Of a stretch of 64,000 nt of DNA, positions 840 to 55,151 are shown one piece after another. Every line of letters begins with the position of its first letter. The first letter of the stretch is position 1. The notes below the pieces were generated by a model that saw only the letters and a program-made list of their open reading frames with translations, had not been told where the DNA came from and searched no databases. The DNA comes from a virus: positions 1 to 64,000 of IMG/VR virus record IMGVR_UViG_3300035698_026482; one strand, 5' to 3'. The translations under genes were made by a program, and so were the position numbers.

Positions 840-1034
840 TTATATTTTTGCGCTGCTAAAGACGACGTTGCCGCTTGGGACAGTGAATTTATTAGTTGCC
901 TTAATCAACCAGAGACCTATATGAAAATCGATAGGGGCAGAAACATGAAATTTATATATGTCTGCGATGTGGACGTTGCTGCGTATGAACCACAGCGTAG
1001 ACATATATCGTTTCGGATGTTGAGATTGCTTCAT
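840..1034 (-). CDS. Array 3 tail-motif small protein A3-9 (last of array)
   Basis: A 64-residue protein ending VVFSSAKI, with motif codons TTT AGC AGC GCA AAA ATA before TAA. It starts two bases after the stop of A3-8. It is the final gene of the array and no Shine-Dalgarno follows its tag, which argues that the C-terminal peptide itself is conserved. An internal KFHVSAPIDFH resembles the tag, so the gene may be a fusion of two units. Function unknown. Confidence 0.65.
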   Translation of the reverse strand: MKQSQHPKRYMSTLWFIRSNVHIADIYKFHVSAPIDFHIGLWLIKATNKFTVPSGNVVFSSAKI

Positions 1035-1035
1035 G

Positions 1036-1221
1036 TCATATACTCATGGTATTCGATGAACCAATAGCCGCACTAGAAAAGTGTAGTTGCGCGCCCTGAG
1101 CTCGCCTAGACGCAATAATCCACTTCGCGAAAGTAGCGGTATCATCAGCGATGCTCAGTACGTCCCCGGCGTACTTGCCTAGGCGCCCCATCAACCACAT
1201 GTCATTATAAACAGTCATCAT
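1036..1221 (-). CDS. Array 3 tail-motif small protein A3-8
   Basis: A 61-residue protein starting MMTVYNDMWLM and ending LHFSSAAIGSSNTMSI. The N-terminal Y-x-x-x-W pattern is shared with A3-3, A3-4 and A3-6, the tag with the whole array. The body between is unlike its neighbours. The start was chosen as the ATG pair just downstream of the A3-7 stop; no clear ribosome site is visible, so coupling is likely. Function unknown. Confidence 0.6.
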   Translation of the reverse strand: MMTVYNDMWLMGRLGKYAGDVLSIADDTATFAKWIIASRRAQGAQLHFSSAAIGSSNTMSI

Positions 1222-1243
1222 GTTCCCATTGTTTATCGACAGG

Positions 1244-1414
1244 TCACTTCGCCCTATTTTTAATGACGGCGCTGACAAAAATAAGCTTCATATGTCCTTC
1301 GATGTGATATCGATGAAGCAACCATCTTACCATTGAATATGCGGAATCGGCATCACAAAATAGAATTCTTGTTTCTGCGCAGATCCATGTAGTATTATAG
1401 CGGATGCGGTGCAT
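1244..1414 (-). CDS. Array 3 tail-motif small protein A3-7
   Basis: A 56-residue protein starting MHRIRYNTTWICAET and ending LIFVSAVIKNRAK, i.e. the F-V-S-A-V-I variant of the array 3 tag. It begins shortly after the A3-6 stop. A longer frame upstream overlaps A3-6 and is probably not used. Contains an N-terminal T-T-W like the T-Q-W of other members. Function unknown. Confidence 0.6.
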   Translation of the reverse strand: MHRIRYNTTWICAETRILFCDADSAYSMVRWLLHRYHIEGHMKLIFVSAVIKNRAK

Positions 1415-1419
1415 TTTTA

Positions 1420-1605
1420 TTAAGGCAATAATGTTGCAAGCGAACAGGATGAAAAGCAACATAACTGTGGATCAACGGACGTTGAATAACTTATGAAGAA
1501 TGCAATTGTTGTAGCATCATCGCTACATGTTATTAGTTTGCAATAATCTGAACTACAGTTTTGTTGTGATGCATTAAACCACATAACGCTATTATAAATT
1601 GTCAT
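1420..1605 (-). CDS. Array 3 tail-motif small protein A3-6
   Basis: A 61-residue protein starting MTIYNSVMWF and ending CCFSSCSLATLLP, so the fourth tag position is Cys instead of Ala. Its ATG overlaps the stop of A3-5 (ATGA), a translational coupling signature. The body has several Cys residues with no obvious zinc motif. Function unknown. Confidence 0.6.
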   Translation of the reverse strand: MTIYNSVMWFNASQQNCSSDYCKLITCSDDATTIAFFISYSTSVDPQLCCFSSCSLATLLP

Positions 1606-1757
1606 ATTGACGAACGTCTTCGTAACGGACAGGACGAAAAATAGTACCGATAGCTGTTCTTTACGCCCGGTCTCTTCAAAAACTTTACAAGGGTGTGAGA
1701 ATCATCGTAATCGTATATTATCCCAACGCCTTTATTGACGTTCGTATAAAGCCACAT
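1602..1757 (-). CDS. Array 3 tail-motif small protein A3-5 (51 aa)
   Basis: A 51-residue reading frame starting MWLYTNVNKGVG and ending RYYFSSCPLRRRSSI. Supported by its exact fit between A3-4 (stop at 1762) and A3-6 (ATGA overlap at 1602-1605) and by the tag F-S-S-C-P-L. It contains an acidic YDYDDS stretch. Function unknown. Confidence 0.6.
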   Translation of the reverse strand: MWLYTNVNKGVGIIYDYDDSHTLVKFLKRPGVKNSYRYYFSSCPLRRRSSI

Positions 1758-1761
1758 GATA

Positions 1762-1953
1762 TTATCGTAAGATGTCATAACATATTACTATTGCTGGTAC
1801 GACAGCCGACACAAAGTAATAAGAACAATCATGAGGGCCTGCCAATTGTTTCGGTGTACTATGATCATTGCGAACGTAAGGCCATGCCGGGGCCGGCCCA
1901 CTGTAATTGTAATACTCATTATCAATGAACCATTGAGTTTTGTACATGACCAT
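1762..1953 (-). CDS. Array 3 tail-motif small protein A3-4
   Basis: About 63 residues, starting MVMYKTQWFID and carrying SYYFVSAVV near the end, followed by a longer tail than usual (PAIVICYDILR). The YKTQWF start is almost identical to that of A3-3, so these two are paralogues with diverged bodies. The start could also be the ATG at 1947. Function unknown. Confidence 0.6.
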   Translation of the reverse strand: MVMYKTQWFIDNEYYNYSGPAPAWPYVRNDHSTPKQLAGPHDCSYYFVSAVVPAIVICYDILR

Positions 1954-1957: not shown

Positions 1958-2113
1958 CTAGAGTTTTGCAGAAATAAATGCATAAAGAGACGATGTAAAC
2001 CCAAGCCATTCAGCCATCTCGCAAGGCAAGTCTTCATCATATATTATAATACATTTATCGGGTTCTTGCGAATCATAGACTCGATGTGCGAACCATTGCG
2101 TTTTGTACTTCAT
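1958..2113 (-). CDS. Array 3 tail-motif small protein A3-3
   Basis: A 51-residue protein starting MKYKTQWFAHRVY and ending LYAFISAKL, the F-I-S-A-K-L form of the tag, which bridges to F-I-S-R-K-I in array 2. Its ATG overlaps the TGA of A3-2. No Shine-Dalgarno is seen, so translation is probably coupled. Function unknown. Confidence 0.65.
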   Translation of the reverse strand: MKYKTQWFAHRVYDSQEPDKCIIIYDEDLPCEMAEWLGFTSSLYAFISAKL

Positions 2114-2283
2114 TGACTTACAATTGTTGCAGACACGAACCATGGCCTACGTTGACCTGTGAGTTGATATGCGTATGTTACCATGACAGCAGCCTCTACG
2201 TTAATTGTCCAGCTGCTGGACGAGCGATGCACGTCGGGCGGAAAGCTAGGTGGGCGAAGGTATTGAATGCGATACGTTTTCAT
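2110..2283 (-). CDS. Array 3 tail-motif small protein A3-2 (57 aa)
   Basis: A 57-residue frame starting MKTYRIQYLRPPSF and ending RPWFVSATIVSQ. It fits tightly: the start follows the A3-1 stop by two bases and its TGA overlaps the A3-3 ATG. The tag is F-V-S-A-T-I. Function unknown. Confidence 0.65.
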   Translation of the reverse strand: MKTYRIQYLRPPSFPPDVHRSSSSWTINVEAAVMVTYAYQLTGQRRPWFVSATIVSQ

Positions 2284-2285: not shown

Positions 2286-2489
2286 TCAACGCTGCGTGAT
2301 CTGATGTATTGGCGCTGAAGAGAATTCAAGATGTGTCGATGAGCCTGTCCTGTAACTGCAGCTCACATAGTAATATAGTAACAGTGAACTTTTACCTGGC
2401 CAAACGTTAGTGGCCCATGTTTTCTTTGCCATACGTTCGTTCCCAGGGCACGAAGACAAAATATCATATATGTGAATATCTCTATTCAT
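2286..2489 (-). CDS. Array 3 tail-motif small protein A3-1 (first of array)
   Basis: A 67-residue protein starting MNRDIHIYDILSSC and ending LEFSSAPIHQITQR. Its ATG lies inside the last codons of the upstream homing endonuclease gene (stop at 2482). The N-terminal hydrophobic run with aspartate resembles array 1 and 2 members, the tag array 3. Function unknown. Confidence 0.6.
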   Translation of the reverse strand: MNRDIHIYDILSSCPGNERMAKKTWATNVWPGKSSLLLYYYVSCSYRTGSSTHLEFSSAPIHQITQR

Positions 2490-11930: not shown

Positions 11931-12227
11931 TTAGTTCAATTTGCCTTGTTGAAATGCATTAACCCACGCGTAAATTGTCGGGGCATGGCAGCCAAATTCT
12001 TTTGCTAGCGTCGTTGCCGATTCACCAGCGAGTTTTCGTGTAGCCGCAACGACTTTCATATCATTCGTAAATTTTCGTTTTTGTTTAGACCTAGGAACAA
12101 GATCTGCGACCCACTTATGAACTACGGTCGGATTAACGTTTAAAATTTCGCCAACCTTATATGTGCTGTGATGCAGCTCATATAATATTCTCGCTGCTTT
12201 TTTGGTTCGGGCAGTATGACGCCTCAT
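11931..12227 (-). CDS. Double helix-turn-helix protein (IS3 OrfA/transposase-like)
   Basis: 98 residues with two HTH units: about residues 10-42 (ARILYELHHSTYKVGEIL then NPTVVHKWVADL) and about 53-95 (FTNDMKVVAATRKLAGES then LAKEFGCHAPTIYAWVNAF). The second fits the OrfA-type transposase HTH pattern. No catalytic partner is nearby. Its ATG overlaps the stop of the last array 1 gene (ATGA), so it is the terminal cistron of array 1 and could be a DNA-binding regulator of it. The exact family is uncertain. Confidence 0.7.
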   Translation of the reverse strand: MRRHTARTKKAARILYELHHSTYKVGEILNVNPTVVHKWVADLVPRSKQKRKFTNDMKVVAATRKLAGESATTLAKEFGCHAPTIYAWVNAFQQGKLN

Positions 12228-12409
12228 AATGTCTTATTATACATCACCCTTCGTGAGGAGAACACGCTTTTATTGCGAATCCTTTTTTTGTCTCCGTAAA
12301 GATCACGAGTCCAGCGACGCCAAGACCGGGCAAATTCATATGTCCACGCGGAAGAAAACCCGTACAGCCTGTGCTCTTGCAAAAAATTGTCTGCGGGCAG
12401 GATCCTCAT
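12224..12409 (-). CDS. Array 1 FSSR-tail small protein A1-17
   Basis: 61 residues starting MRILPADNFLQEH. The tag is VFSSRRV, followed by MYNKTL. It overlaps the upstream stop (ATGA at 12406-12409) and the HTH gene downstream. An internal GFSSAWTYEF echoes the array 3 form of the tag. Function unknown. Confidence 0.7.
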   Translation of the reverse strand: MRILPADNFLQEHRLYGFSSAWTYEFARSWRRWTRDLYGDKKRIRNKSVFSSRRVMYNKTL

Positions 12410-12601
12410 CTGCTTATCCTACGTGAGGAGAACACATGGCTTGTACCCTCGTGGGTTGGATCACCGTAATAATCATTCGTCTTCCAGGCCCATACAAGTT
12501 GACGATCGGGGGGGGAGGTAGCCTCGACGGTGGTTTACTGCCCTGCTGCTATCAATATAAAGGATAAGGTCGCCTAGGAACCATTTCATTGCACGTGTCA
12601 T
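12406..12601 (-). CDS. Array 1 FSSR-tail protein A1-16, frame interrupted at a C8 tract
   Basis: The ATG at 12601 (MTRAMKWFLGDLILYID) opens a frame that ends at 12473 without the tag. In the frame one base away, after eight consecutive C (G on the plus strand, 12508-12515), the sequence continues as DRQLVWAWKTNDYYGD and ends HVFSSRRISR with a stop at 12406 that is coupled to A1-17. With seven C the gene would be intact. Either slippage or phase variation, a recent mutation, or an assembly error. Confidence 0.6.
12508..12515. repeat. Homopolymer of eight G (C8 on the coding strand)
   Basis: The tract lies inside A1-16 exactly where its reading frame must change to reach the FSSR tag. Confidence 0.85.
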
Positions 12602-12762
12602 GCGCTCACCTTTCGTGAAGACCATTGATTGACTTGATGGGCCGGGGTCGAGCCCATTGTTTTCATCGTCGTGCTCATCCAATAACGTTGCGCTTGATTA
12701 CCCATATAGTTTAAGAGATACATGTCATCACATCGCCATGGCAATTTTTCAACAACCCACAT
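12598..12762 (-). CDS. Array 1 FSSR-tail small protein A1-15
   Basis: 54 residues starting MWVVEKLPWRCDDMYLLNYM and ending NQWSSRKVSA, with Trp in place of the motif Phe. Clear paralogue of A1-13 (shared DDMYLL, MGN, QRYWM, KTMGSTPAH). Its start overlaps the upstream TAA (TAATG), with AAGGTG from the preceding tag as ribosome site. Function unknown. Confidence 0.75.
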   Translation of the reverse strand: MWVVEKLPWRCDDMYLLNYMGNQAQRYWMSTTMKTMGSTPAHQVNQWSSRKVSA

Positions 12763-12968
12763 TAGCTGCTCACCTTGCGTGATGAGAACATCATGCTGGC
12801 GTAGCTGCAGATCCATGAATAGGGTGAACAAAATGACTCACGCGACCAACCAAGATCCTCTGGGGACGAGCTCGGCTCATCATTTTTTGTGCACCAAGTA
12901 TATGCTTGCGGCTTGAAAAAATCGTCACGAAGCAACTGATCGTATCCGTTCAGCCAAGTTGTTTTCAT
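12762..12968 (-). CDS. Array 1 FSSR-tail small protein A1-14
   Basis: 68 residues starting MKTTWLNGYDQLLRDDFF and ending MMFSSRKVSS. The codons TTC TCA TCA CGC AAG GTG encode FSSRKV and at the same time give the AAGGTG ribosome site for A1-15. Overlaps both neighbours by one to four bases. Function unknown. Confidence 0.75.
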   Translation of the reverse strand: MKTTWLNGYDQLLRDDFFKPQAYTWCTKNDEPSSSPEDLGWSRESFCSPYSWICSYASMMFSSRKVSS

Positions 12969-13129
12969 ACATTTACCTTGCGTGAAGACCATTGATAGGC
13001 CCGATGGGCCGGGGTCGAGCCCATTGTTTTCAGCACGTTGCTCATCCAATAACGTTGTATTTCATTGCCCATATTACGCAAAAGATACATGTCATCAGGT
13101 CGCCTCGGAAATCCCACAACGGCCCACAT
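12965..13129 (-). CDS. Array 1 FSSR-tail small protein A1-13
   Basis: 54 residues starting MWAVVGFPRRPDDMYLLRNM and ending YQWSSRKVNV. Paralogue of A1-15; RPDDMY is also found in A2-13 of the second array, linking the arrays. TAATG start overlap with A1-12. Function unknown. Confidence 0.75.
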   Translation of the reverse strand: MWAVVGFPRRPDDMYLLRNMGNEIQRYWMSNVLKTMGSTPAHRAYQWSSRKVNV

Positions 13130-13416
13130 TAGTTGGCCACCTTCCGCGATGAGAATATTGAAATACAAAAGGCGCCGCCCGGCATGCCTCTATCAACGCA
13201 ATAAGGCATGCCGCCGCCGGCGTGTTTGGATGAGGCTGTTTCATATTTTGATGCCTTGCATGTATATCTTAAATTCGTGATTATGTAAGAACCGCCCATG
13301 CGATTCTCATGATACTGGAAATATGAATCGTCTACTGCAATGCATGCATATAGATCAGGCCAATGAACATACGGCCAATGTTTTATTTGCCTTGGCGCTG
13401 GATTTACGACCTTCAT
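13129..13416 (-). CDS. Array 1 FSSR-tail small protein A1-12
   Basis: 95 residues, the longest of the array, starting MKVVNPAPRQIKHWPYVHWP and ending SIFSSRKVAN. The WPY...D segment resembles A1-11. ATG overlaps the A1-11 stop. Function unknown. Confidence 0.75.
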   Translation of the reverse strand: MKVVNPAPRQIKHWPYVHWPDLYACIAVDDSYFQYHENRMGGSYIITNLRYTCKASKYETASSKHAGGGMPYCVDRGMPGGAFCISIFSSRKVAN

Positions 13417-13637
13417 CTATTCACCCTGCGGCTTGAAAATATAAGCGCCTCTATATGCCCATCATGTAGTGGCGCCGTGTATGTGCATTTATCGTTAAAC
13501 TGCCATCCGCATTGCTTTGCAGTCTGTGTTTTATTATCGAAGTCCCATATACACGCTTGCTGACTTGACAGATGAATTGGTATGTCTAGTGAATAGGGCC
13601 ACCCGCGCAAGAGAATATCACCCGATAACAGTTTCAT
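13413..13637 (-). CDS. Array 1 FSSR-tail small protein A1-11
   Basis: 74 residues starting MKLLSGDILLRGWPYSLD and ending LIFSSRRVNR. The motif uses TTT TCA AGC CGC AGG GTG, i.e. an AGC serine instead of TCN. Shows the N-terminal GD-hydrophobic signature of the family. ATGA coupling to A1-10. Function unknown. Confidence 0.75.
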   Translation of the reverse strand: MKLLSGDILLRGWPYSLDIPIHLSSQQACIWDFDNKTQTAKQCGWQFNDKCTYTAPLHDGHIEALIFSSRRVNR

Positions 13638-13837
13638 GTGCTCACCTTCCTGGACGAGAAGATAAGATATTTGTGATACTGTAATCTGTACGCTGCTGCT
13701 TTCGTCGAAGCCGCTTTTGCCTGGGTGGGACTCATTTTTCCTACATCAATATAGTATGCGCGGCGACGGCGGCGGCTGTATATCCACTTGTCATATTGCC
13801 ATTTTTCAATTAGCGCATCCTGAATTTTGTATTTCAT
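13634..13837 (-). CDS. Array 1 FSSR-tail small protein A1-10
   Basis: 67 residues starting MKYKIQDALIEKWQYDKW, with an SRRRRR run and an Ala-rich helix-like segment, ending LIFSSRKVST. Motif codons TTC TCG TCC AGG AAG GTG. Start chosen by overlap with the A1-9 stop; a longer frame upstream overlaps A1-9. Function unknown. Confidence 0.75.
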   Translation of the reverse strand: MKYKIQDALIEKWQYDKWIYSRRRRRAYYIDVGKMSPTQAKAASTKAAAYRLQYHKYLIFSSRKVST

Positions 13838-13931
13838 ACATTCACCTTTCGTGAGGAGAAAATGATCATACGTCCATATGGATGGTAATTCGTTGCATCT
13901 AACGACCACGGCGGCAAAATATGATACATTT
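13833..13931. repeat. Copy 1 of a ~98-bp duplication in array 1
   Basis: Nearly identical to 13976-14074. Covers the 3' half of A1-9 including the FSSR tag. Confidence 0.85.
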
Positions 13932-13980
13932 TATCTGTACTTGTTGGCCAGAATTGATGATCTCCCGCGAGCATATTCAT
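13834..13980 (-). CDS. Array 1 FSSR-tail small protein A1-9 (48 aa)
   Basis: 48 residues starting MNMLAGDHQFWPTSTDK and ending MIIFSSRKVNV. The C-terminal two thirds (MYHIL.P.SLDATNYHPYGR onward) is nearly identical to A1-8, from a recent tandem duplication. The AAAGGTG of the tag sits just before the next ATG. Function unknown. Confidence 0.7.
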   Translation of the reverse strand: MNMLAGDHQFWPTSTDKMYHILPPWSLDATNYHPYGRMIIFSSRKVNV

Positions 13981-14074
13981 ACATTCACCTTTCGTGAGGA
14001 GAAAATGATCATACGTCCATATGGATGGTAATTCGTTGCATCTAACGAGCCCGGCGTCAAAATATGATACATTT
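13976..14074. repeat. Copy 2 of a ~98-bp duplication in array 1
   Basis: Nearly identical to 13833-13931. Covers the 3' half of A1-8. Offset between copies is 143 bp. Confidence 0.85.
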
Positions 14075-14117
14075 CAAACATTTTCAATACCATGTGATCG
14101 TCTAGCTTGAGTTTCAT
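13977..14117 (-). CDS. Array 1 FSSR-tail small protein A1-8 (46 aa)
   Basis: 46 residues starting MKLKLDDHMVLKMFEMYHIL and ending MIIFSSRKVNV. Same C-terminal segment as A1-9 with a different N-terminus, showing that N-terminal parts can be exchanged. ATGA overlap with the A1-7 stop. Function unknown. Confidence 0.7.
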   Translation of the reverse strand: MKLKLDDHMVLKMFEMYHILTPGSLDATNYHPYGRMIIFSSRKVNV

Positions 14118-14335
14118 ATTGTCACCTTGCGTGAAGAAAATGCCCAGGCAATAGTTTCCCCTGCGAAGTCGTTATCATGATTAAGATACGTGGTCTCGTA
14201 AGCAACATGTTCCTCGCCGCGCGAAAGCTTATAGCCTATGCGACGACCGTGCTGCCCGGTCTGACCGTGCATGACAACTGCCTCTACGCGGATTGAATTA
14301 AAAACAACAGCTAAGTCATCGTGATATGCAATCAT
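14114..14335 (-). CDS. Array 1 FSSR-tail small protein A1-7
   Basis: 73 residues starting MIAYHDDLAVVFNSIRVEA and ending WAFSSRKVTI. The MIAY.DD start is shared with A2-6 in array 2, so the two arrays hold orthologous or paralogous pairs. Starts within the A1-6 stop region. Function unknown. Confidence 0.75.
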   Translation of the reverse strand: MIAYHDDLAVVFNSIRVEAVVMHGQTGQHGRRIGYKLSRGEEHVAYETTYLNHDNDFAGETIAWAFSSRKVTI

Positions 14336-14550
14336 CGTGCTACACGCCTTGAAGAAAATGCAGTAATATGCTGATCAGTAACACCCCATCTAATCAGATT
14401 CTTAGTTATGACTAAAGGTAACGACGATGTTTTGGCGCCCGATTTAAATTCTGTAGGATGCTGCCCAAAAAATGCGATTTTTGAATCAGCAATATGAAGT
14501 CTTAAGAAGAAATCACCTTCATGCCAGCGAAATTTAATTTGAGGAACCAT
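14332..14550 (-). CDS. Array 1 FSSR-tail small protein A1-6
   Basis: 72 residues starting MVPQIKFRWHEGDFFLRLH and ending TAFSSRRVAR (TTT TCT TCA AGG CGT GTA). Shows the GD-F-F-L signature near the N-terminus. Overlaps the end of A1-5. Function unknown. Confidence 0.75.
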   Translation of the reverse strand: MVPQIKFRWHEGDFFLRLHIADSKIAFFGQHPTEFKSGAKTSSLPLVITKNLIRWGVTDQHITAFSSRRVAR

Positions 14551-14800
14551 TACCTAGCGATCTGCTTGAAAATACAAGCACTTCATCGATGCTCGGACAG
14601 CCGAATGTCGTGAAATCATTTTGCGGGGACCAAGTGCAATAATTGCACCAGCGCCAGCCGCGTGATTCGGGTGTCACGTAACGATCGCCCATATCAAGCC
14701 ATAATGACGCCGCGCCATACCAGCGTGATTCAAGCGCTTCGGGATTATCGTGTATGTTGCCCTGTATGAGCATGTCGTTGAGCATAATTTTCATCTCCAT
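14534..14800 (-). CDS. Array 1 FSSR-tail small protein A1-5
   Basis: 88 residues starting MEMKIMLNDMLIQGN and ending LVFSSRSLGNGSSN. Motif codons TTT TCA AGC AGA TCG CTA differ at most positions from the commonest form, yet the peptide is kept. Trp- and Cys-containing body (WRWCNYCTW). Function unknown. Confidence 0.75.
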   Translation of the reverse strand: MEMKIMLNDMLIQGNIHDNPEALESRWYGAASLWLDMGDRYVTPESRGWRWCNYCTWSPQNDFTTFGCPSIDEVLVFSSRSLGNGSSN

Positions 14801-14801
14801 A

Positions 14802-14957
14802 CTAAGCGCGCACCTTCCTTGAGGAAAATGTAATGTTGTTTTCTGAATACTTTGAGCCTATCCAGAAAATTGTCGCCATGTGATGTGTCGACGATCCAGG
14901 TGGCGCTGCCCAATGCGTTGGATGCTGTATATACGAATCCTTGTGATTAACGAGCAC
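14802..14957 (-). CDS. Array 1 FSSR-tail small protein A1-4
   Basis: 51 residues from a GTG at 14957 (VLVNHKDSYIQHPTHW), ending ITFSSRKVRA. GTG was chosen because GAGGAG, which encodes RR of the A1-3 tag, lies five bases upstream. An ATG at 14996 would lengthen it by 13 residues inside A1-3. Function unknown. Confidence 0.65.
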   Translation of the reverse strand: MLVNHKDSYIQHPTHWAAPPGSSTHHMATIFWIGSKYSENNITFSSRKVRA

Positions 14958-15180
14958 GTAATCTCCTCGAGCTAAATGCGAAATTGAAATCGTCAAGGCT
15001 TAAGCAACATCTCCATTCGGCAGTCGCACATTGACTCCAGCCATTGCTTACAGGTGTACTTGGCGTCAACCATTGACAAGGTGTTGCTTCCACGTCGGTC
15101 CATTTATTTGGATAATAATGTAGATTATACATTAGAATATTATCTCCCAAGGCAATAAACGAGACATATCGGCGCTTCAT
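14947..15180 (-). CDS. Array 1 FSSR-tail small protein A1-3
   Basis: 77 residues starting MKRRYVSFIALGDNILMYN and ending FAFSSRRLRAR. Motif codons TTT AGC TCG AGG AGA TTA, fully different from the array majority. Its ATG overlaps the A1-2 stop (ATGA). GD-N-I-L signature near the N-terminus. Function unknown. Confidence 0.75.
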   Translation of the reverse strand: MKRRYVSFIALGDNILMYNLHYYPNKWTDVEATPCQWLTPSTPVSNGWSQCATAEWRCCLSLDDFNFAFSSRRLRAR

Positions 15181-15317
15181 CGTGCCACCGACCTCGATGA
15201 AAATTGCCAACAAACATATTCGCTAAAATAAAAAAGCTCTTTGTCATCGTATTTGTGTCCGTATACGATTATGCCTCGAGAAGGACGATTCAAGGCGTCA
15301 AGATGATCACCTCGCAT
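15177..15317 (-). CDS. Array 1 FSSR-tail small protein A1-2 (46 aa)
   Basis: A short frame starting MRGDHLDALNRPSRG and ending WQFSSRSVAR (TTT TCA TCG AGG TCG GTG). It is supported by the tag, by the ATGA overlap with A1-3 and by the R-G-D start typical of the family. A GTG at 15341 could lengthen it by eight residues. Function unknown. Confidence 0.65.
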   Translation of the reverse strand: MRGDHLDALNRPSRGIIVYGHKYDDKELFYFSEYVCWQFSSRSVAR

Positions 15318-15344
15318 ACTTGTGGTGTAACATCGTTTCACATC

Positions 15345-15385
15345 ATCAGTCGCTATCGCATGATCAGTCGCCTATCGCATGATCA
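15345..15385. repeat. Short tandem direct repeat (18-19 bp, two copies)
   Basis: Two copies of atcagtcgc(c)tatcgcatg between A1-1 and A1-2, possibly a protein-binding site or slippage product. Confidence 0.7.
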
Positions 15386-15398
15386 TTTTGATATACAA

Positions 15399-15590
15399 TC
15401 ATCCTGTGATTTTCCGTGAGCTAAAAATAATAGAATCACCAATAAAAGCATTGGTATAATGCCGCATGGGGGTGTAGTAAATCGCTACGATCTCGCCGGT
15501 ACGATGAAAACACATATCAACGGTATCATCAGCGTTAACGCGCCGCATAGCAACGTTAACATCAATTGCAGCGCGCCATAACATGTTCAT
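15399..15590 (-). CDS. Array 1 FSSR-tail small protein A1-1 (first of array)
   Basis: 63 residues starting MNMLWRAAIDVNVAMRR and ending IIFSSRKITG (TTT AGC TCA CGG AAA ATC). It is the first gene of array 1, 40 bp after the nucleotidyltransferase stop. A TATGAT about ten bases before ATG may be a -10 element. Function unknown. Confidence 0.7.
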   Translation of the reverse strand: MNMLWRAAIDVNVAMRRVNADDTVDMCFHRTGEIVAIYYTPMRHYTNAFIGDSIIFSSRKITG

Positions 15591-15629
15591 ATTGTATCAT
15601 ATGCTGACACAGATATACACGTTCAGCGA

Positions 15630-16829
15630 TTATTGATTAAGCCAGAGACCTGCGTTTTTTAACGCATTAATCGTTGTGGGTTCTTTTGTGTAAACCGTGT
15701 CTAAGTCAGCAACACCATACCCGGGACACCCCGAATCGCGCGGTTGGTGATCTTCTGTTTCGTCAGCACCGATTTTGGAAACATCTGCGCGCTTATCAGA
15801 ATAGTGTTTCCATACTGCTTTTGCTTGACCTGAGATTATTTCGCGGTCAGGCATCAAGCCATCGCCCTGTAATGTTGCCCATTCCATCGCCACGTCATAA
15901 ATGAATGGTCCCCATCCCTTAACCGCTGACGCCTCAGCGACGACCCACGCGTCACATTCCTTTGACCACCATATTTTGATCTCGGCAATAGAAGTATCAT
16001 CATTACCTAGCACGAATTCTATGCTTGATGGACGTTTATTGGTCGAGTCGGTCCACCATGTAACATAGAAGCCTTGCTCGATATCATTTATGCTGCGTGC
16101 AGCTTCCACTAGCTCTCGTGCGGGAGATTCGAGTGTAAGCTCTTTTTCTTTTTTGGCATGCGCCGCATCGTACAGCTTCTTAATATACCCATTACGCCGA
16201 AGGGCTTTAAAGGCCAGATTCTCAACAGAAAATTCGCCCGCTGAGTCTAGACCTGCTTGTCGCATTTTCTTGACCTTTTGTTTGGCCACATCAAAGCATG
16301 TATCGCTACAGTCGGGATCATCGAGTGCATAGTCAATCATATTCATCAATGACTCTGCTTTATCATTGATTGATTTTTCATCAATCGTGTGTAATTTACG
16401 TTCAGGACGTATAAGCCATTTATCACGTGAGACATCGTACACACCTGTTGAATGGTGTGGTTCGCTTACGTCTTGGGCGTAAAGTTCGACCTCATATCCC
16501 TTGGCGGTTACTTCAAATTGATCATTCCAGATTGTCTTTTTTGCATTCATCAAATTTCGTACAAGCTCAACGTTGTTTGATACTGCTGCGAAATCTAACA
16601 AAATATGAAGATCAATATCGCTATATTCGCTCCAGTTAAAATTCGCCAATGAACCAGTAAAAATAACACCCACGATTGGGATATCAATTTCTAGGAAGTC
16701 GACAAATTCCTGCGCGATATCAAGCAACGTTGCTCGAACTACCGGATCCAAGCGCATGCCTCGCCAAACGTCAGGACTTAGTTCATCTTTAATTTTGAAG
16801 CTGTCTAAATCAACTGCGCGTGACATCAT
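15630..16829 (-). CDS. DNA polymerase beta-like nucleotidyltransferase
   Basis: 399 residues. The N-terminal domain has the nucleotidyltransferase signature GS (59-60) followed by DID (71-73) within FTGSLANFNW and SEYSDIDLHIL, i.e. the G-S...D-x-D metal site. A helical region follows, then a C-terminal domain with GYGVADLD near the end. Members of this superfamily transfer nucleotides to proteins, RNA or small molecules; the substrate here cannot be told. It lies between array 1 and the small gene at 16841. Start could also be ATG 16826. Confidence 0.7.
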   Translation of the reverse strand: MMSRAVDLDSFKIKDELSPDVWRGMRLDPVVRATLLDIAQEFVDFLEIDIPIVGVIFTGSLANFNWSEYSDIDLHILLDFAAVSNNVELVRNLMNAKKTIWNDQFEVTAKGYEVELYAQDVSEPHHSTGVYDVSRDKWLIRPERKLHTIDEKSINDKAESLMNMIDYALDDPDCSDTCFDVAKQKVKKMRQAGLDSAGEFSVENLAFKALRRNGYIKKLYDAAHAKKEKELTLESPARELVEAARSINDIEQGFYVTWWTDSTNKRPSSIEFVLGNDDTSIAEIKIWWSKECDAWVVAEASAVKGWGPFIYDVAMEWATLQGDGLMPDREIISGQAKAVWKHYSDKRADVSKIGADETEDHQPRDSGCPGYGVADLDTVYTKEPTTINALKNAGLWLNQ

Positions 16830-16840
16830 TACGTCTATTC

Positions 16841-17212
16841 TTATCGGTAAAATGTTTCTAGAAGAACATTATGGATTAATTGACGCACCTTAACTTCTGC
16901 GAGTTGTTGCTCGACGCGCTGACTAAGATATTTCACTTGGTCGTCACTAAATGCTGCATCACCGCCTTGGCCGATAAGGCCAATTGCGGTAAGTAATAGC
17001 GCCCTCAACATGCTTCCCGGAACGCTATGTGTGCGGGAAGCATCTGCCGCCAATGATGGCAAGTTTCGAGCGATAGACCCTGGATCACCCACCCATTTCA
17101 TTTTTGCAATACGAGCAATATGTTTTGCCGCCTTATCGACTTGTGGGTTGGCCTTCGGTTTCGATGGCTCTTTGCGCTTAAGCTTGTTTGGGTCAAATGC
17201 ACTGGGACGCAT
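16841..17212 (-). CDS. Hypothetical protein
   Basis: 123 residues, basic proline-rich N-terminus (MRPSAFDPNKLKRKEPSKPK) and a helical C-terminus (DDQVKYLSQRVEQQLAEVKV). A GTAGGGAT ribosome site lies just before ATG. No family recognised. Sits between the orphan FSSR gene and the nucleotidyltransferase. Confidence 0.65.
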   Translation of the reverse strand: MRPSAFDPNKLKRKEPSKPKANPQVDKAAKHIARIAKMKWVGDPGSIARNLPSLAADASRTHSVPGSMLRALLLTAIGLIGQGGDAAFSDDQVKYLSQRVEQQLAEVKVRQLIHNVLLETFYR

Positions 17213-17228
17213 ATCCCTACATATATCG

Positions 17229-17363
17229 CTATACTAGACGACGTGAGCTAAAACAAAAAACTTCCGGCGAATATCTAATATGCACATCAGAAAATAAACC
17301 GCCAGCTTGCCAATAGCTACAGTTACCACGGTTAATCAGATAATCGTACTTAGTAATCCTCAT
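17229..17363 (-). CDS. Orphan FSSR-tail small protein (44 aa)
   Basis: A 44-residue frame starting MRITKYDYLINRGNCSYW and ending FCFSSRRLV (TTT AGC TCA CGT CGT CTA). It overlaps the last codons of the NTP pyrophosphatase gene and is the only gene in the 130-bp gap before 17212. It is a single family member outside the arrays. Function unknown. Confidence 0.65.
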   Translation of the reverse strand: MRITKYDYLINRGNCSYWQAGGLFSDVHIRYSPEVFCFSSRRLV

Positions 17364-49741: not shown

Positions 49742-50689
49742 CTAGGGAACGTTGGGACTGGGCAGGTTATTGCACGCAGTATCAATAACCATTAACGCAT
49801 CTTCGAAAAACTGCTCATATGATGGTGCGCAGATGTCGCCGATAAACCCGTTTGTGAACATATTCGTGAACTGTGTAAGAATAGGCGCTTGTGCCATCCA
49901 CGTATTTTCACAGTCTGGCGAATCAGGTACACTGATTAACGACAAAATGACAACATTCTTTTCATCTTGTTCTAGATACAACATATGCTCAAACGAAATT
50001 GCGGCATTTTGCTGTGATGCAGCATCCTCATCGGTAATAATAACCACTACGAGTAATGCATCATCGCGATTAAAGCCTTCATTACATTGACCTGGTGAAT
50101 TTAAGAAGCCCTCTAGCGCTGCAATCGTTGCAGAAATAGGCTCTTCAAGACCACTGCCTGTGGCACCCACATTCGCTGCACATGTAAACGCAGAACTAAT
50201 ATCATCATCCTGCGTCATGTAATTATTACCTGCGACATATGGACCACATGTCGAGGTGCTTGTTGTTGTTACTAATGCACCAAGCTTTTGACATGGTCCA
50301 GGATTATCATCAAAATCGTCTGTGGTGACAACTCCAAGATGAATGCTTTCGAGTTCGACGATATAATTTTCAATCTGATTTGCAAATGCCGGAAATGACT
50401 CAATGAGCTTTTGTTGATTATCAAACATGGATCCAGAATTGTCGATCACAAAAAGAAAATCAACGTTCTTGCACGTTAATAGATTCCCGTCTGGATCAAC
50501 ATTCATGCCACCCGATCCATCGATATCAAGCTTGTCAGCAGGCGCATCGCCGCTTTCGCTTGCTTCGCTTCCAGACATAACATCTGGTTGTTTGCCAACG
50601 CTTAATGCAAATTCGGCATCGTTTGGATTACATGCAAGTGACAATGTAGCAATAATACCAAGCAACGCCGTTTTTAATTTTCTTATCAT
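49742..50689 (-). CDS. VWA-domain lipoprotein
   Basis: 315 residues. Signal peptide with lipobox ending ATLSLAC (Cys20), an acidic linker, then a von Willebrand factor A domain with MIDAS motif FVIDNSGSMF (D-x-S-G-S near residues 83-87) and later T/D positions (VVIITDEDAASQQ). Such lipoproteins are common in Myxococcota-type bacteria and bind proteins or metals on the cell surface. Its presence in a phage is unusual; host cell-surface modification or captured host gene are possibilities. Confidence 0.8.
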   Translation of the reverse strand: MIRKLKTALLGIIATLSLACNPNDAEFALSVGKQPDVMSGSEASESGDAPADKLDIDGSGGMNVDPDGNLLTCKNVDFLFVIDNSGSMFDNQQKLIESFPAFANQIENYIVELESIHLGVVTTDDFDDNPGPCQKLGALVTTTSTSTCGPYVAGNNYMTQDDDISSAFTCAANVGATGSGLEEPISATIAALEGFLNSPGQCNEGFNRDDALLVVVIITDEDAASQQNAAISFEHMLYLEQDEKNVVILSLISVPDSPDCENTWMAQAPILTQFTNMFTNGFIGDICAPSYEQFFEDALMVIDTACNNLPSPNVP

Positions 50690-50891: not shown

Positions 50892-51077
50892 TTAAAGCTT
50901 ACGACTAGAAAATATCTGTTGACTTCCAAGTAACATACTTCGTAGTTTTTTATCATACCTGATATGGGGTGCAGCAAAATAGTCCGTGTATATAAGCTGA
51001 CCCTTTAATTTGTCAAGGAAGTAGCGAGAAAAATACATATCGTCTGGGCGAATATAGCTGCTAAATTGAGATGTCAT
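50892..51077 (-). CDS. Array 2 FSSR-tail small protein A2-13 (last of array)
   Basis: 61 residues starting MTSQFSSYIRPDDMYFSRY and ending QIFSSRKL with codons TTT TCT AGT CGT AAG CTT before TAA. It is last in the array and the next gene is 200 bp away, yet the tag is intact, which argues for selection on the peptide. RPDDMY is shared with A1-13. Function unknown. Confidence 0.7.
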   Translation of the reverse strand: MTSQFSSYIRPDDMYFSRYFLDKLKGQLIYTDYFAAPHIRYDKKLRSMLLGSQQIFSSRKL

Positions 51078-51078: not shown

Positions 51079-51282
51079 TTATATTTTTCTGCTTGAAAAG
51101 CATGTTTCGCCGCTGTACCATGCATCGCCAAATGTTTCTCGCAAAAATTGACCTGGAAACATAACACGAAAATAGCAAAGGTTAAGCAGTGAACCAAACT
51201 CACCGCGCAAGGAACCGCTATGTTCATTAGAATAAATGTATAAATCGCCCGTAACAACAGGGATTTTGTTATGATTTATCAT
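51079..51282 (-). CDS. Array 2 FSSR-tail small protein A2-12
   Basis: 67 residues starting MINHNKIPVVTGDLYIYSN and ending TCFSSRKI (TTT TCA AGC AGA AAA ATA). GDLYIY matches NDLYIY in A2-5. Overlaps the end of A2-11 by 14 bp. Function unknown. Confidence 0.7.
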   Translation of the reverse strand: MINHNKIPVVTGDLYIYSNEHSGSLRGEFGSLLNLCYFRVMFPGQFLRETFGDAWYSGETCFSSRKI

Positions 51283-51541
51283 TTGGCGGACTGGTAAGCA
51301 TTTCAACTAATGCATAAACTGCTTCCTCATTATGTTTAATTAATTCTGTTCTAAGATCGATTTCTGCCCTAATAACATCTCGCGGCGGCTCAGCAGCGAT
51401 TTCATACTGATAAGCTTGTTCGTTCATGCGATGAATAATATGTCTAAGCTTGGCTGTACGAACTAGTTCCCACTCCCACGTTGCGCGACGCCCATGATGA
51501 CTAATATATTTCACCCACGTATATTTTTCTGTTTTTATCAT
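51269..51541 (-). CDS. Array 2 small protein A2-11 without the tag
   Basis: 90 residues starting MIKTEKYTWVKYISHHGRR and ending MLTSPPNDKS. It is in the array and coupled to its neighbours but lacks the FSSR tail and looks helical, unlike the others. Function unknown. Confidence 0.6.
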   Translation of the reverse strand: MIKTEKYTWVKYISHHGRRATWEWELVRTAKLRHIIHRMNEQAYQYEIAAEPPRDVIRAEIDLRTELIKHNEEAVYALVEMLTSPPNDKS

Positions 51542-51544: not shown

Positions 51545-51712
51545 CTAAATCTTTCTTGAGATAAATCTGCGCCATAATGAATAGCCAACATCTGCATAGC
51601 TTAAAATCGTGTTCGGTGGGGCGGTTCTAAATTCAATCTCATGATGCTTCTGTTCATTATAAAACGGCAAGAAAAAGTAGAAATAATGATCTGCAGGCCT
51701 AATTTTCATCAT
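51545..51712 (-). CDS. Array 2 FSSR-tail small protein A2-10 (55 aa)
   Basis: 55 residues starting MMKIRPADHYFYFFLPFY and ending RRFISRKI. The variant F-I-S-R-K-I links the FSSR and FISA tags of the other arrays. Its ATG overlaps the A2-9 stop. Function unknown. Confidence 0.65.
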   Translation of the reverse strand: MMKIRPADHYFYFFLPFYNEQKHHEIEFRTAPPNTILSYADVGYSLWRRFISRKI

Positions 51713-51900
51713 GTGCGCCTTGAACTAAAAATCCATTTGCGCAACATCATTCCGTCAGATGCCAGGTTTTCACCATAACTCGCTCCCTGTGACATAATAT
51801 CGCCGAAATAAGCTTCATCACGCATGTATGAAACATGCATTCCGCTCGTCTGTATCCAATGTATCAAAAAGAAACATGCATCGTTTTTATATGGCCTCAT
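51709..51900 (-). CDS. Array 2 FSSR-tail small protein A2-9
   Basis: 63 residues starting MRPYKNDACFFLIHWIQTSG and ending WIFSSRRT (TTT AGT TCA AGG CGC ACA), with an AGT serine codon. Starts within the A2-8 stop. Function unknown. Confidence 0.7.
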   Translation of the reverse strand: MRPYKNDACFFLIHWIQTSGMHVSYMRDEAYFGDIMSQGASYGENLASDGMMLRKWIFSSRRT

Positions 51901-52106
51901 ATCGCTAGTTTTCTTGAGCTAAAAACGTACCCAACTGAGAAGAGGTCGTATTTGCAGGCGCCCGTATAGTAGTATGTTCGGTATCTTGCAATTACGTTAT
52001 CAAGTATATCTTGGTAAAAGATAGCGTCATCATAATCCATCCATTCTCTTAGCGACATGTTTCGTTTTGGATTGAGAAGCTGTTTGTATAATTCATTCGC
52101 GCTCAT
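51897..52106 (-). CDS. Array 2 FSSR-tail small protein A2-8
   Basis: 69 residues starting MSANELYKQLLNPKRNMSLR and ending YVFSSRKLAI (TTT AGC TCA AGA AAA CTA). Tyr/Asp-rich body. Its ATG lies inside the end of A2-7. Function unknown. Confidence 0.7.
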   Translation of the reverse strand: MSANELYKQLLNPKRNMSLREWMDYDDAIFYQDILDNVIARYRTYYYTGACKYDLFSVGYVFSSRKLAI

Positions 52107-52275
52107 AAATTCGTCTTGATGAAAACACGTCAGATGATATTAGCGTCGACAAATCAGCCCATTGGGTAACATTGCCAGCAGTCCACGTGCGGCGGATTCC
52201 GCCAATATAATCAATTCCCGCTGCAAGCATCACGAAATCGTTATGCTTAATCAATGTGTAATTCATTTGCATCAT
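52093..52275 (-). CDS. Array 2 FSSR-tail small protein A2-7
   Basis: 60 residues starting MMQMNYTLIKHNDFVMLAAG and ending DVFSSRRIYERE. ND-F-V-M signature near the N-terminus. ATGATG overlap with A2-6. Function unknown. Confidence 0.7.
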   Translation of the reverse strand: MMQMNYTLIKHNDFVMLAAGIDYIGGIRRTWTAGNVTQWADLSTLISSDVFSSRRIYERE

Positions 52276-52499
52276 CTATTCACCCTTCGTGATGAGAAAT
52301 AATATGCCACTAATTCATGATATCCCGTACGCAAGACAAAATTAGTACCGTATTTATATTCGTACAGTAGCGGCGCATCACCAAAAAAAGCAATCGCGTC
52401 ATCGTCGGATATCAATTTTTCGACACGACATTTTTCACAGCCACGAGTCATTATTCCTGACATTACATGGATTGAATAGTCATCCTTGTATGCAATCAT
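52272..52499 (-). CDS. Array 2 FSSR-tail small protein A2-6
   Basis: 75 residues starting MIAYKDDYSIHVMSGIMT and ending YYFSSRRVNR. The MIAY.DD start matches A1-7. ATG overlaps the A2-5 stop (TAATG). Function unknown. Confidence 0.75.
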   Translation of the reverse strand: MIAYKDDYSIHVMSGIMTRGCEKCRVEKLISDDDAIAFFGDAPLLYEYKYGTNFVLRTGYHELVAYYFSSRRVNR

Positions 52500-52702
52500 T
52501 ATTCGGCTTTTGTTATTATTTTTCGTGACGAGAAAACGTCAAGCATGTGCTCATACGTCCGTAGTCCGAACTTGCCTACGTAATCAGCCTGGAAATAATC
52601 GATAACTGTTCCGACAAAGTAATTGTCGGGATCTGTTACGTCAAGCTTTTCATTGCCATGAAAATAGATGTACAAATCATTAAGTTCTACGGGTACCCGC
52701 AT
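52499..52702 (-). CDS. Array 2 FSSR-tail small protein A2-5
   Basis: 67 residues from ATG 52702 (MRVPVELNDLYIYFHGNEK) ending DVFSSRKIITKAE. Here the tag codons CGA AAA ATA no longer form a good ribosome site for A2-6 although the peptide is kept. Overlaps the end of A2-4 by 23 bp. Function unknown. Confidence 0.7.
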   Translation of the reverse strand: MRVPVELNDLYIYFHGNEKLDVTDPDNYFVGTVIDYFQADYVGKFGLRTYEHMLDVFSSRKIITKAE

Positions 52703-52874
52703 TTGATACCCTTCGCGATGAGAAAACGTAGCAGTAATTGTTGTGTGCATAATGTGATGCGGATCTAGCGGATCTCGTGTATGTTATATGGGTGGTATAT
52801 ACGTTGCACACGTCAGCGAACTGTGGAGGGCTATACCGATACACACACGCTTTATCGCCAGTTCTGGAATTCAT
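52680..52874 (-). CDS. Array 2 FSSR-tail small protein A2-4
   Basis: 64 residues starting MNSRTGDKACVYRYSPPQFA, ending YVFSSRRVSNAGTRRT; the tail after the motif is longer than usual because A2-5 starts inside it. ATGA overlap with A2-3. Function unknown. Confidence 0.7.
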   Translation of the reverse strand: MNSRTGDKACVYRYSPPQFADVCNVYTTHITYTRSARSASHYAHNNYCYVFSSRRVSNAGTRRT

Positions 52875-53086
52875 GTTGTGCTAATCTTTCGTGACGAGAA
52901 AGTTTCAATGTGAAAACCCGAAGGCGTCCAGGCACTTAATTGTGGATTGCGTAAGGTCATCGAGTCCTTTGTTAACGGATAATATGAATACCTTGTCCTG
53001 CCGGGTCTTGATGGACATCGCCAGTAGACGATTATTCCATACGTCGGGGTAACCCTGAACACGTGATCAAGTGACGTTGACAGCAT
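52871..53086 (-). CDS. Array 2 FSSR-tail small protein A2-3
   Basis: 71 residues starting MLSTSLDHVFRVTPTYGI and ending ETFSSRKISTT (TTC TCG TCA CGA AAG ATT). ATG follows the A2-2 stop by two bases. Function unknown. Confidence 0.75.
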   Translation of the reverse strand: MLSTSLDHVFRVTPTYGIIVYWRCPSRPGRTRYSYYPLTKDSMTLRNPQLSAWTPSGFHIETFSSRKISTT

Positions 53087-53088
53087 TG

Positions 53089-53277
53089 TTATCTATTCGC
53101 TTTCCGTGATGAGAAAATATATTCGTCCGTGTACGAACGTTGAACGCTGCGGGACGTAGCATATGCGATATAAGCACCACCGTTCAGCGTGGTAGCAATT
53201 GAACGATCAAGTACACGGAAATTTGAATCTTCGCGTGACCAGGCTATAAAATAGTGATCGTCGAAAACTATAGGCAT
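53089..53277 (-). CDS. Array 2 FSSR-tail small protein A2-2
   Basis: 62 residues starting MPIVFDDHYFIAWSREDS and ending YIFSSRKANR. D-D-H-Y-F-I signature. Its ATG lies in the last codons of HEG-F. Function unknown. Confidence 0.75.
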   Translation of the reverse strand: MPIVFDDHYFIAWSREDSNFRVLDRSIATTLNGGAYIAYATSRSVQRSYTDEYIFSSRKANR

Positions 53278-54869
53278 GCATTCCCTTGTAATTCGAATCG
53301 TGCATTAGGACAGCCATAAATTTTAACAAGACCTCGAGCTGCGGCAACAGCCGCTTGCGACAATCCTTGTGTCTTATCTGCAGTAACGTATAATCGCGGA
53401 TATCTGTTTACAAAATCTGTCCACCAAAATCTAGAGCTTGTTAGACCGGTGTAGGTAAATCCAATATTACTATACCCGACACCTAAGCCTATTCGACGAT
53501 CTGCATAAGTCATAATAGATTTTGTATTATCGATATCGTTTCTTGCGTGCTTTAAAAGCTTTGACAATCCGCCGATAACGTATAGATTAAGTGACGTAGC
53601 ATATCGCGCTATTTCCAAGAAATTCTTTTTGTGCGTCTTTGAAATCGGTGTTCGTAACGAAAGCGCAGCAACAATTTCATTGTCATGAATTAAGGCATAT
53701 GCAGCCTTCGCGTTTCCAGTATCACCATCTAAGTGCGTCGAATTAAAAAATGTCTGGCGTTGGGCGCGCGTAAGTTTCTCGATTCGACATTTTCGTGCAT
53801 AAATTTTTGTGCAATCAACCTTTAGACGATTTCTGATCATCGATTTAACAATCTGTTGTTTGTCACGCCACTCGTCTTCAAAGATATGAAACAGGGGTAA
53901 GTCAATTGCTTCACACAACTGCGTTTTATCCCAATGCGCATCATTATTCGTTAATATTTCTTCAGAATGCCAATATAACCCATTAAATTCAATTGCTAAC
54001 GTATTCGGCACAAGTATATCGATTTCTTTAGGTGCTATTGTATTTCTATCGTTTAATATAGCGTCAGGCCTGAGGGCTTTTACGAAGTCATATACTTCCC
54101 TCTCTGATTTCCACTTTGGCATGCATGAAGGGCAATACTGGCGCCGAAGCATGTATTTGTATGTCCGCTCAAATGTTGTATCACATGTCGTGCATTTAAA
54201 TGTCGCTCGTGAATTCACGCCTGCGTATTCGTCAATTGACGAATATAATTCGAATCCTTTCATTTCAGCACATCGTTCAGCAACGACGTTTTTATCAAGC
54301 ATTTGCGACGCGCTTATTTTCGCTGCGCCAATGATCAGTCCGGGTGTATCGTCTTTTGTCTTATTACGATTCCACGGGACAGTTGTTCCATCAGCAAAAT
54401 TAGCCAGTTTTGTTTCTGACATTTGCTTTATTGATGCGCTCGTATCTTTTGTTAGTCCATTTTGCCATGGAACTAGTCTGCCTTCTGCGTATCCGCGCTG
54501 CAATGTCTCTGCAGTTTTCTTTGCGATGGCCCTAACTCTGCTATCTTGCTTTGTTAAACCCTTATTCCACGAGCCATGTATTTTACGATGCTTTGCCGAT
54601 GCTAGCGTCGCTGCTTTTCGAGCCTTGTCGCTGAATCCATTATGACCAACAACAAACTTTGAAAATGCACGATTATCATCTGTCCAGCGTTGTGCCAATG
54701 ATACAGTTTCGCCGCAGCCGCATGAACATGTGGGAACCTCACCATTATGCAACATATCTGCGAAAATTTTCGACCTAGATACATCGCGATGCGCTTTCGT
54801 GATATGACAGGCCATACCGCGCCGCGTTTTTACGATTGCGCAAATAGGGCACTTGTAATCGACTGGCAT
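53268..54869 (-). CDS. Homing endonuclease HEG-F (EDxHD / Vsr-like) inside array 2
   Basis: 533 residues. Zinc motifs at the N-terminus (CPICAIVKTRRGMACH, CSCGCGE), repeated NKGLTKQDS / QNGLTKDTS motifs, Vsr-like core (EIDILVPNTLAIEFNGLYWH, LFHIFEDEW) and the shared C-terminal domain (RFWWTDFVNRYP, ADKTQGLSQAAVAAARGLVKIYG). Free-standing: it is not next to an intein. It separates the first array 2 gene from the rest; its last codons overlap the A2-2 start. A TATAAT lies about ten bases before its ATG. Confidence 0.8.
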   Translation of the reverse strand: MPVDYKCPICAIVKTRRGMACHITKAHRDVSRSKIFADMLHNGEVPTCSCGCGETVSLAQRWTDDNRAFSKFVVGHNGFSDKARKAATLASAKHRKIHGSWNKGLTKQDSRVRAIAKKTAETLQRGYAEGRLVPWQNGLTKDTSASIKQMSETKLANFADGTTVPWNRNKTKDDTPGLIIGAAKISASQMLDKNVVAERCAEMKGFELYSSIDEYAGVNSRATFKCTTCDTTFERTYKYMLRRQYCPSCMPKWKSEREVYDFVKALRPDAILNDRNTIAPKEIDILVPNTLAIEFNGLYWHSEEILTNNDAHWDKTQLCEAIDLPLFHIFEDEWRDKQQIVKSMIRNRLKVDCTKIYARKCRIEKLTRAQRQTFFNSTHLDGDTGNAKAAYALIHDNEIVAALSLRTPISKTHKKNFLEIARYATSLNLYVIGGLSKLLKHARNDIDNTKSIMTYADRRIGLGVGYSNIGFTYTGLTSSRFWWTDFVNRYPRLYVTADKTQGLSQAAVAAARGLVKIYGCPNARFELQGNACL

Positions 54870-54917
54870 CTTACATATTATACATATGTTAGATCAATAT
54901 GTTTGGTCCAGCCTGCA

Positions 54918-55151
54918 CTATTGTTTAGCAATGCCGAGACGACGGGATGAGAAAACATCGTATTCCCAATATCCCAGTATGCCTCCCGATGTTGAATATT
55001 CATGCGCGGTTGGCCACGTATCAATGAAATGGTCAAGTGGGAGGGCCCAGTGGTTATAATTCGTTAATATTAACATCCTGGATTGTGCCCAATCAGATAA
55101 AGTCACGTCGTCGAGGGCACCAATATGCGTTGCATTCTGCTTTAGTATCAT
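54918..55151 (-). CDS. Array 2 FSSR-tail small protein A2-1 (first of array)
   Basis: 77 residues from ATG 55151 (MILKQNATHIGALDDVTL) ending DVFSSRRLGIAKQ. It follows directly after the terminator of the tail tube gene and is separated from the other array genes by HEG-F. An upstream frame extension covers the terminator and is unlikely. Function unknown. Confidence 0.7.
   Translation of the reverse strand: MILKQNATHIGALDDVTLSDWAQSRMLILTNYNHWALPLDHFIDTWPTAHEYSTSGGILGYWEYDVFSSRRLGIAKQ

Follow-up and report, generated by a model that had tools for sequence, protein, structure and literature searches.

Three arrays of small genes in a phage genome encode hypervariable proteins with shared constant ends

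The stretch of DNA examined here (64,000 nucleotides, hereafter the window) comprises bases 1-64000 of the 182,840 bp record of an uncultured tailed phage in IMG/VR (IMGVR_UViG_3300035698_026482). It carries three arrays of tiny genes on the minus strand, most of whose predicted products end in a short tail of the type FSSR[KR](V/I/L) or a variant of it. In this study, we describe the arrays, the features that their products have in common and the roles that such a set of proteins could play.

Results

About forty genes of this kind are present in total, with predicted products of 44-95 amino acids (Table 1). Array 1 (15590-12224) comprises 17 gene positions and 17 tails, 15 of them FSSR and two WSSR, the latter belonging to the tandem duplicates A1-13 and A1-15; two members (A1-2 and A1-16) are frame-disrupted and have retained the tail. 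Array 2 (55151-50892) holds 12 tagged genes, with FSSRKA, FSSRRT and FISRKI among their tails, and one untagged gene (A2-11). The nine genes of array 3 (2489-840) end in the variant tail F-[SVI]-S-[AC]-x-h, where h is a hydrophobic residue. Three single copies lie outside the arrays, one within the window (S17) and two elsewhere in the record, near 92.8 kb and near 151 kb. The gene counts and coordinates of all three arrays given in the initial annotation of the window were found to be correct; the three single copies had been overlooked there. For several members the start codon is a matter of choice, most notably the TTG assigned to A1-4.

The tail occurs far more often than expected by chance. 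When it was defined strictly as [FW]SSRx[VIL] located no more than 16 codons from the stop of an open frame 40 codons or longer, it was counted 17 times in array 1 and nine times in array 2, against means of 0.002 and 0.000 (maxima of 1 and 0) in dinucleotide shuffles, and it was absent from the plus strand. FSSR lies near the C-terminus of 26 open reading frames of the window, while in the related and control loci that were compared no C-terminal 4-mer was shared by more than five. All six codons of serine (TCN and AGY) and all six of arginine (CGN and AGR) are used in the tails. Ahead of the tail, its own reading frame stays open for a mean of 72.8 codons, compared with 12.9 and 19.3 codons for the two alternative frames. 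Within array 1, K-V is encoded by AAGGTG or AGGGTG, placed where the Shine-Dalgarno sequence of the following gene is expected; this accounts for the codon bias at K-V and leaves FSS unexplained. No Rfam family was found in 12000-17500. The arrays are real protein-coding genes, and the shared tail, as the initial annotation had proposed, is conserved as protein.

A second constant segment is located near the start of the proteins. The motif [IL]xx[GDN]Dxhh is present there in 24 of the 30 members of the array-1/2 type, compared with a mean of 9.8 and a maximum of 19 in 2000 shuffles, which bears out the N-terminal pairing of D with hydrophobic residues that had also been noticed earlier. With anchors set by hand and by eye in 26 members, so that the position statistics are descriptive, a hydrophobic residue was observed at D-4 in 20 members, at D+2 in 24 and at D+3 in 24. 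At the other end, the residue preceding the F of the tail is hydrophobic (Ile, Val, Ala, Thr, Cys or similar) in 24 of 28 members and the last position of the motif in 27 of 28. This pattern is strand-like and suggests that the tail forms part of a strand-like segment instead of being carried on a free linker. Array 3 is organised likewise: its proteins start with a Y..MW-like motif and end in F-x-S-[AC]-x-h.

The conserved D and the F of the tail are 31-68 residues apart, and the segments between them vary in both length and sequence. These middles are enriched in Tyr (7.8%, versus 3.0% in the large genes of the phage and 4.2% in random translation) and Trp (3.3%, versus 1.2% and 1.5%, respectively); Asp, at 6.7%, exceeds random translation (3.3%) and is not high compared with the large genes, and Glu is scarce. 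Such a composition in Tyr, Trp and Asp would resemble that of binding surfaces. Two AlphaFold models, of A1-11 and A2-2, are beta-rich and place strands at the D motif and at the tail, at low confidence (pLDDT values of 50 and 51). Judging from these features of the sequences, the array members look more like variants of a domain framework than like bearers of a floppy tag.

At most junctions the neighbouring genes overlap, usually by 4 bases, and recent duplication is evident within array 1. The 31-residue 3' parts of A1-8 and A1-9 are 94% identical and their 5' parts are unrelated; A1-13 and A1-15 are followed by genes that are unlike each other and yield a pN/pS of 0.49 over 54 codons. In both pairs the shared stretches are bounded by the conserved tail and the next start, which suggests, from two cases, that whole blocks may be exchanged at tail boundaries. 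A diversity-generating retroelement was also considered and was rejected, no match to reverse transcriptase (PF00078) being present in the phage record, which is linear and may be incomplete.

Searches for relatives, from which records very close to the phage record may have been omitted, gave no convincing match in Pfam, PHROGs, NCBIfam, PADLOC or PDB for the 28 aligned members; a lone match to Portal_T4 (E 0.0072) and one to Cas7b (E 0.034) were judged to be due to chance. When 14 members were joined into one query and compared with 50,697 phage records, a single match resulted, with an E of 10, and no relatives were found with the duplicated pair as the query. The members have no conserved 7-column block, which makes alignment-based search impossible. 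Degenerate tail patterns in IMG/VR and GTDB genomes returned single chance matches only, never an array, and no excess of tails was detected in 17 large related records. The eight strict tails found in about 2.67 Mb of other loci are scattered, and all of them lie in loci that had been retrieved with the tail pattern as the query. The literature searched yielded no description of such a family. As far as sequence comparison can tell, the array proteins belong to no known family, in agreement with the initial annotation, which was aware of none. Three Nitrospinota genes resembling ECF sigma factors (L276, L277 and L278) end in FSSRKVE[EK]; these are single genes, and the resemblance was judged a coincidence.

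By its gene content, the phage is a T4-like myovirus. Its tail sheath is similar to those of myophages, its tail tube is approximately 70% identical to those of many phages from environmental samples, and it encodes a T4-like major head protein and a head maturation protease of the T4 type (PHROG 207, E 2.3e-48). Arrays 1 and 3 lie on either side of the DNA polymerase gene and are not adjacent to head genes. The polymerase gene, which encodes DNA polymerase III alpha (dnaE; 11894-3411, minus strand), is in at least five pieces, separated by parts of inteins and by free-standing genes for Vsr-type endonucleases, and its C-terminal part (about 290 amino acids of the homologue in the marine phage L176) was not found within the phage record. 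The ribonucleotide reductase region (24947-19333) appears to be interrupted in much the same way. Array 3 adjoins a gene on the minus strand (1-700) for a repeat protein with near-identical repeats, GLWTDEGAAGVSQTGSITVGGDAGI...SASNGAVTIHAVTG, which runs past the contig start. Next to array 2 is a lipoprotein-like gene (49742-50689, minus strand), part of which resembles von Willebrand A and which has no PHROG match, and a search for relatives of a nucleotidyltransferase-like gene adjoining array 1 found none. The T4 late promoter TATAAATA is not enriched within the window.

Table 1. Members of the three arrays, the single copy and the inserted gene, with positions in the window.
Gene	Position	Strand	Length (aa)	N-terminal motif	Tail	Remark
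A1-1	15399..15590	-	63		FSSRKITG	opens array 1
A1-2	15177..15402	-		MIVYQNDHA..	FSSRSVAR	frame-disrupted; tail in different frame
A1-3	14947..15180	-	77	GDNILM	FSSRRLRAR
A1-4	14802..14996	-	64	GDYVLV	FSSRKVRA	TTG start assumed
A1-5	14534..14800	-	88	NDMLI	FSSRSLGNGSSN
A1-6	14332..14550	-	72	GDFFL	FSSRRVAR
A1-7	14114..14335	-	73	MIAYHDD	FSSRKVTI
A1-8	13977..14117	-	46			3' part near-identical to A1-9; 5' part unrelated
A1-9	13834..13980	-	48		FSSRKVNV
A1-10	13634..13837	-	67		FSSRKVST
A1-11	13413..13637	-	74	GDILL	FSSRRVNR	first AlphaFold model
A1-12	13129..13416	-	95		FSSRKVAN
A1-13	12965..13129	-	54	PDDMYLL	WSSRKVNV	duplicate of A1-15
A1-14	12762..12968	-	68		FSSRKVSS
A1-15	12598..12762	-	54	CDDMYLL	WSSRKVSA	duplicate of A1-13
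A1-16	12406..12601	-		MTRAMKWFLGDLILYID..	FSSRRISR	frame-disrupted; tail in different frame
A1-17	12224..12409	-	61		FSSRRVMYNKTL	closes array 1
S17	17229..17363	-	44	YDYLI	FSSRRLV	single copy
A2-1	54918..55151	-	77		FSSRRLGIAKQ	immediately downstream of tail tube gene
Homing endonuclease-like gene	53268..54869	-				Vsr/zinc-finger type, named by sequence features only; inserted within array 2
A2-2	53089..53277	-	62	DDHYF	FSSRKANR	second AlphaFold model
A2-3	52871..53086	-	71		FSSRKISTT
A2-4	52680..52874	-	64		FSSRRVSNAGTRRT
A2-5	52499..52702	-	67	NDLYIY	FSSRKIITKAE
A2-6	52272..52499	-	75	MIAYKDD	FSSRRVNR
A2-7	52093..52275	-	60	NDFVM	FSSRRIYERE
A2-8	51897..52106	-	69		FSSRKLAI
A2-9	51709..51900	-	63		FSSRRT
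A2-10	51545..51712	-	55		FISRKI
A2-11	51269..51541	-	90			untagged; within array 2
A2-12	51079..51282	-	67	GDLYIY	FSSRKI
A2-13	50892..51077	-	61	PDDMYF	FSSRKL	closes array 2; tail kept without a gene directly after
A3-1	2286..2489	-	67		FSSAPIHQITQR
A3-2	2110..2283	-	57		FVSATIVSQ
A3-3	1958..2113	-	51	YKTQWF	FISAKL
A3-4	1762..1953	-	63	YKTQWF	FVSAVV
A3-5	1602..1778	-	58	YDNIMWL	FSSCPL
A3-6	1420..1605	-	61	YNSVMWF	FSSCSL
A3-7	1244..1414	-	56		FVSAVI
A3-8	1036..1221	-	61	YNDMWLM	FSSAAI
A3-9	840..1004	-	54		FSSAKI

Discussion

The reading that we prefer, with a probability of roughly one half, is that the arrays encode one hypervariable family of small beta-rich domains with constant edge strands, whose members are produced from coupled operons and collectively serve as small proteins that bind host targets. 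Each gene would specify one small, probably beta-rich domain, in which the edge segments [IL]xx[GDN]Dxhh and (I/V)FSSR[KR](V/I/L) form a constant framework, probably as neighbouring strands joined by contacts such as those of the conserved D and R, and the Tyr/Trp/Asp-rich stretch between the edges would be free to change. New members could arise by tandem duplication and block exchange, followed by divergence. Neighbouring genes share a few bases, and in array 1 the codons of a tail may double as the ribosome site of the next gene; each array is thus probably made as one set, and the proteins of a set would most likely bind different host molecules, acting as inhibitors of host functions or of defence. 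The marine GDLV arrays discussed below, which share the layout of two constant ends (GDLV ... LEV) and are weakly SH3/KOW-like, were counted in favour of this interpretation.

Several observations weigh against it. By the simple rule used, a clear D motif is missing in six of the 30 members, and a structural search with the two weak models gave no significant fold match. Evidence for purifying selection comes from a single duplicate pair, the second having too few changes to be informative, and no homologue was found outside the phage record, which precludes an ortholog-based test of selection. In addition, the invariance of S-S-R exceeds what most edge strands need and would suit a recognised signal. 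The interpretation offered in the initial annotation is supported in part: its protein-level family, with two shared ends and a hypervariable middle and without a described counterpart, is borne out, and its shared fold with a constant last strand is favoured by the strand-like ends and the strands of the models, whose pLDDT of about 50 keeps confidence low. Of the roles that it listed (takeover effectors, packaged cargo or a ligand-diversified family), that of cargo gains circumstantial support from the locus of array 2 in related phages.

An alternative that we consider possible, while leaning against it, is that the tail serves as an address. It would then be a C-terminal counterpart of the capsid targeting sequence of T4, directing a library of small, mutually unrelated proteins to the prohead, from which they would be ejected into the next host; such a role would be compatible with that of small-domain binders. 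The layout matches that of the internal proteins of T4, in which a short constant end is placed on unrelated bodies (PMC9026906). The position of array 2 also points in this direction. In most relatives, no more than a few hundred bases separate the tail tube gene from the gp26-like gene that follows it; in this phage the distance is 7.4 kb, array 2 included. In six relatives (L050, L061, L053, L044, L041 and L084), genes that begin with MKITKRQLRRIIKEE are present beside the tube gene; in three of these relatives they were shown to lie within the gap between the tube and gp26-like genes (L050, 10464-14525; L061, 3024-6143; L053, 6044-7685). This phage possesses IIREE-type genes of its own adjoining array 2 (at 61488, 61143, 60697 and 57710). 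The MKITKRQLRRIIKEE tags contain IxE, as do T4-type prohead cleavage sites, and resemble capsid targeting sequences (PMC9026906); by analogy, they and the IIREE tags may act as such. The presence of tagged arrays at this site suggests that it hosts accessory, perhaps packaged, proteins, which keeps the idea of virion cargo alive; that the phage encodes a head maturation protease as well as a major head protein of T4-like type is consistent with this idea.

Further support could come from the capsid itself. The pre-sequence of the major capsid protein of this phage (C1:75312-77210 of the genome, L001) reads GLLKNLSSRKRSTMARLLEN and contains LSSRKRS, a stretch that in 78 relatives is mostly LDGxRRE-like and in none of the 78 contains SSR. 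However, this match was spotted after the fact, and SSR[KR] occurs in four non-array proteins of the same genome. Were FSSRKV to dock on the head core via the surface used by the capsid SSRKR, a library of about forty hypervariable mini-proteins could be delivered into the host, an elaboration that we regard as decidedly unlikely. Against an address in general, no shared N-terminal propeptide ending in (I/L)xE was found, any [IL]xE at residues 6-27 being present in only 4 of 39 members. A fold is indicated instead by the D motif at the opposite end and by the strand-like surroundings of the tail, and arrays 1 and 3 lie beside the DNA polymerase gene rather than head genes.

A second alternative concerns fold and ancestry and is compatible with the preferred reading of small, beta-rich binders. 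Tandem arrays downstream of dnaE are also found in five marine phage loci (L176, 16252-19911; L191, 11027-13223; L182; L181; L168), where overlapping genes encode proteins of 55-75 amino acids with GDLV starts, LEV-type ends and hypervariable middles. The profile of these proteins weakly matches KOW/SH3-type chains (NusG, L21, L26 and Spt5), none of them significantly. The FSSR family could be a very diverged lineage of such SH3/KOW-like proteins, as the agreement in size, operon style, kind of neighbourhood, GD plus hydrophobic residues at the start and a conserved end would suggest. We nevertheless consider this unlikely, since the GDLV profile matched no array member at E<=10, profile-profile comparison (hhalign) gave a probability of 0.13-0.5%, and the tail score of the GDLV proteins was no better than that of controls (P=0.97); homology to the GDLV arrays was rejected as undetectable on these three counts.

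It is highly improbable that the tail marks otherwise unrelated small proteins for turnover or localisation, for instance as a protease recognition end; its basic-hydrophobic end, its strict S-S-R and its proximity to the stop codon in all members would suit such a signal, but 0-8 residues follow the motif, unlike in a strict C-terminal degron, and its context is strand-like. Finally, a conserved DNA or RNA element (a ribosome site, promoter or recombination site) with incidental reading frames, an alternative raised in the initial annotation itself, is scarcely credible and was rejected, for although the array-1 K-V codons coincide with the Shine-Dalgarno position, serine and arginine codons interchange, only the tail frame is open, tails are kept where the next gene is absent and no Rfam family is matched.

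Phage genomes contain thousands of tiny genes without relatives. The linkage of about forty such orphans by two short ends shows that orphans can form one hypervariable family hidden from similarity searches. If the proteins are binders, the arrays would represent a naturally occurring collection of mini-proteins that inhibit host functions, and if the tail is an address, it would constitute a new delivery signal. Any phage genome can be searched for shared ends in arrays, an approach that in the present case also revealed two further array classes in related phages.

Among known systems, the MAX effectors of the rice blast fungus are comparable in combining one small beta fold with little sequence similarity. 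They were among the non-significant fold matches (E 3.2 and above) and are fungal, and the comparison is an analogy only, with no claim of membership. The GDLV arrays are similar in protein size, gene overlap, GD-hydrophobic start, conserved end and location near dnaE, but differ in that profile comparison detects no sequence relation to the FSSR family. The MKITKRQLRRIIKEE-tagged arrays likewise consist of tandem small genes, at the same site between the tube and gp26-like genes, but carry an N-terminal tag on conventional-looking bodies and no FSSR tail. The internal proteins of T4 (IPI, IPII and IPIII) are also small and fast-changing, share only a short terminal segment and belong to a T4-like phage with a head maturation protease; whereas their tag is N-terminal and cleaved and their members are few, the tag described here is C-terminal and without a cleavage motif, is accompanied by a second constant end and is found in about forty members.

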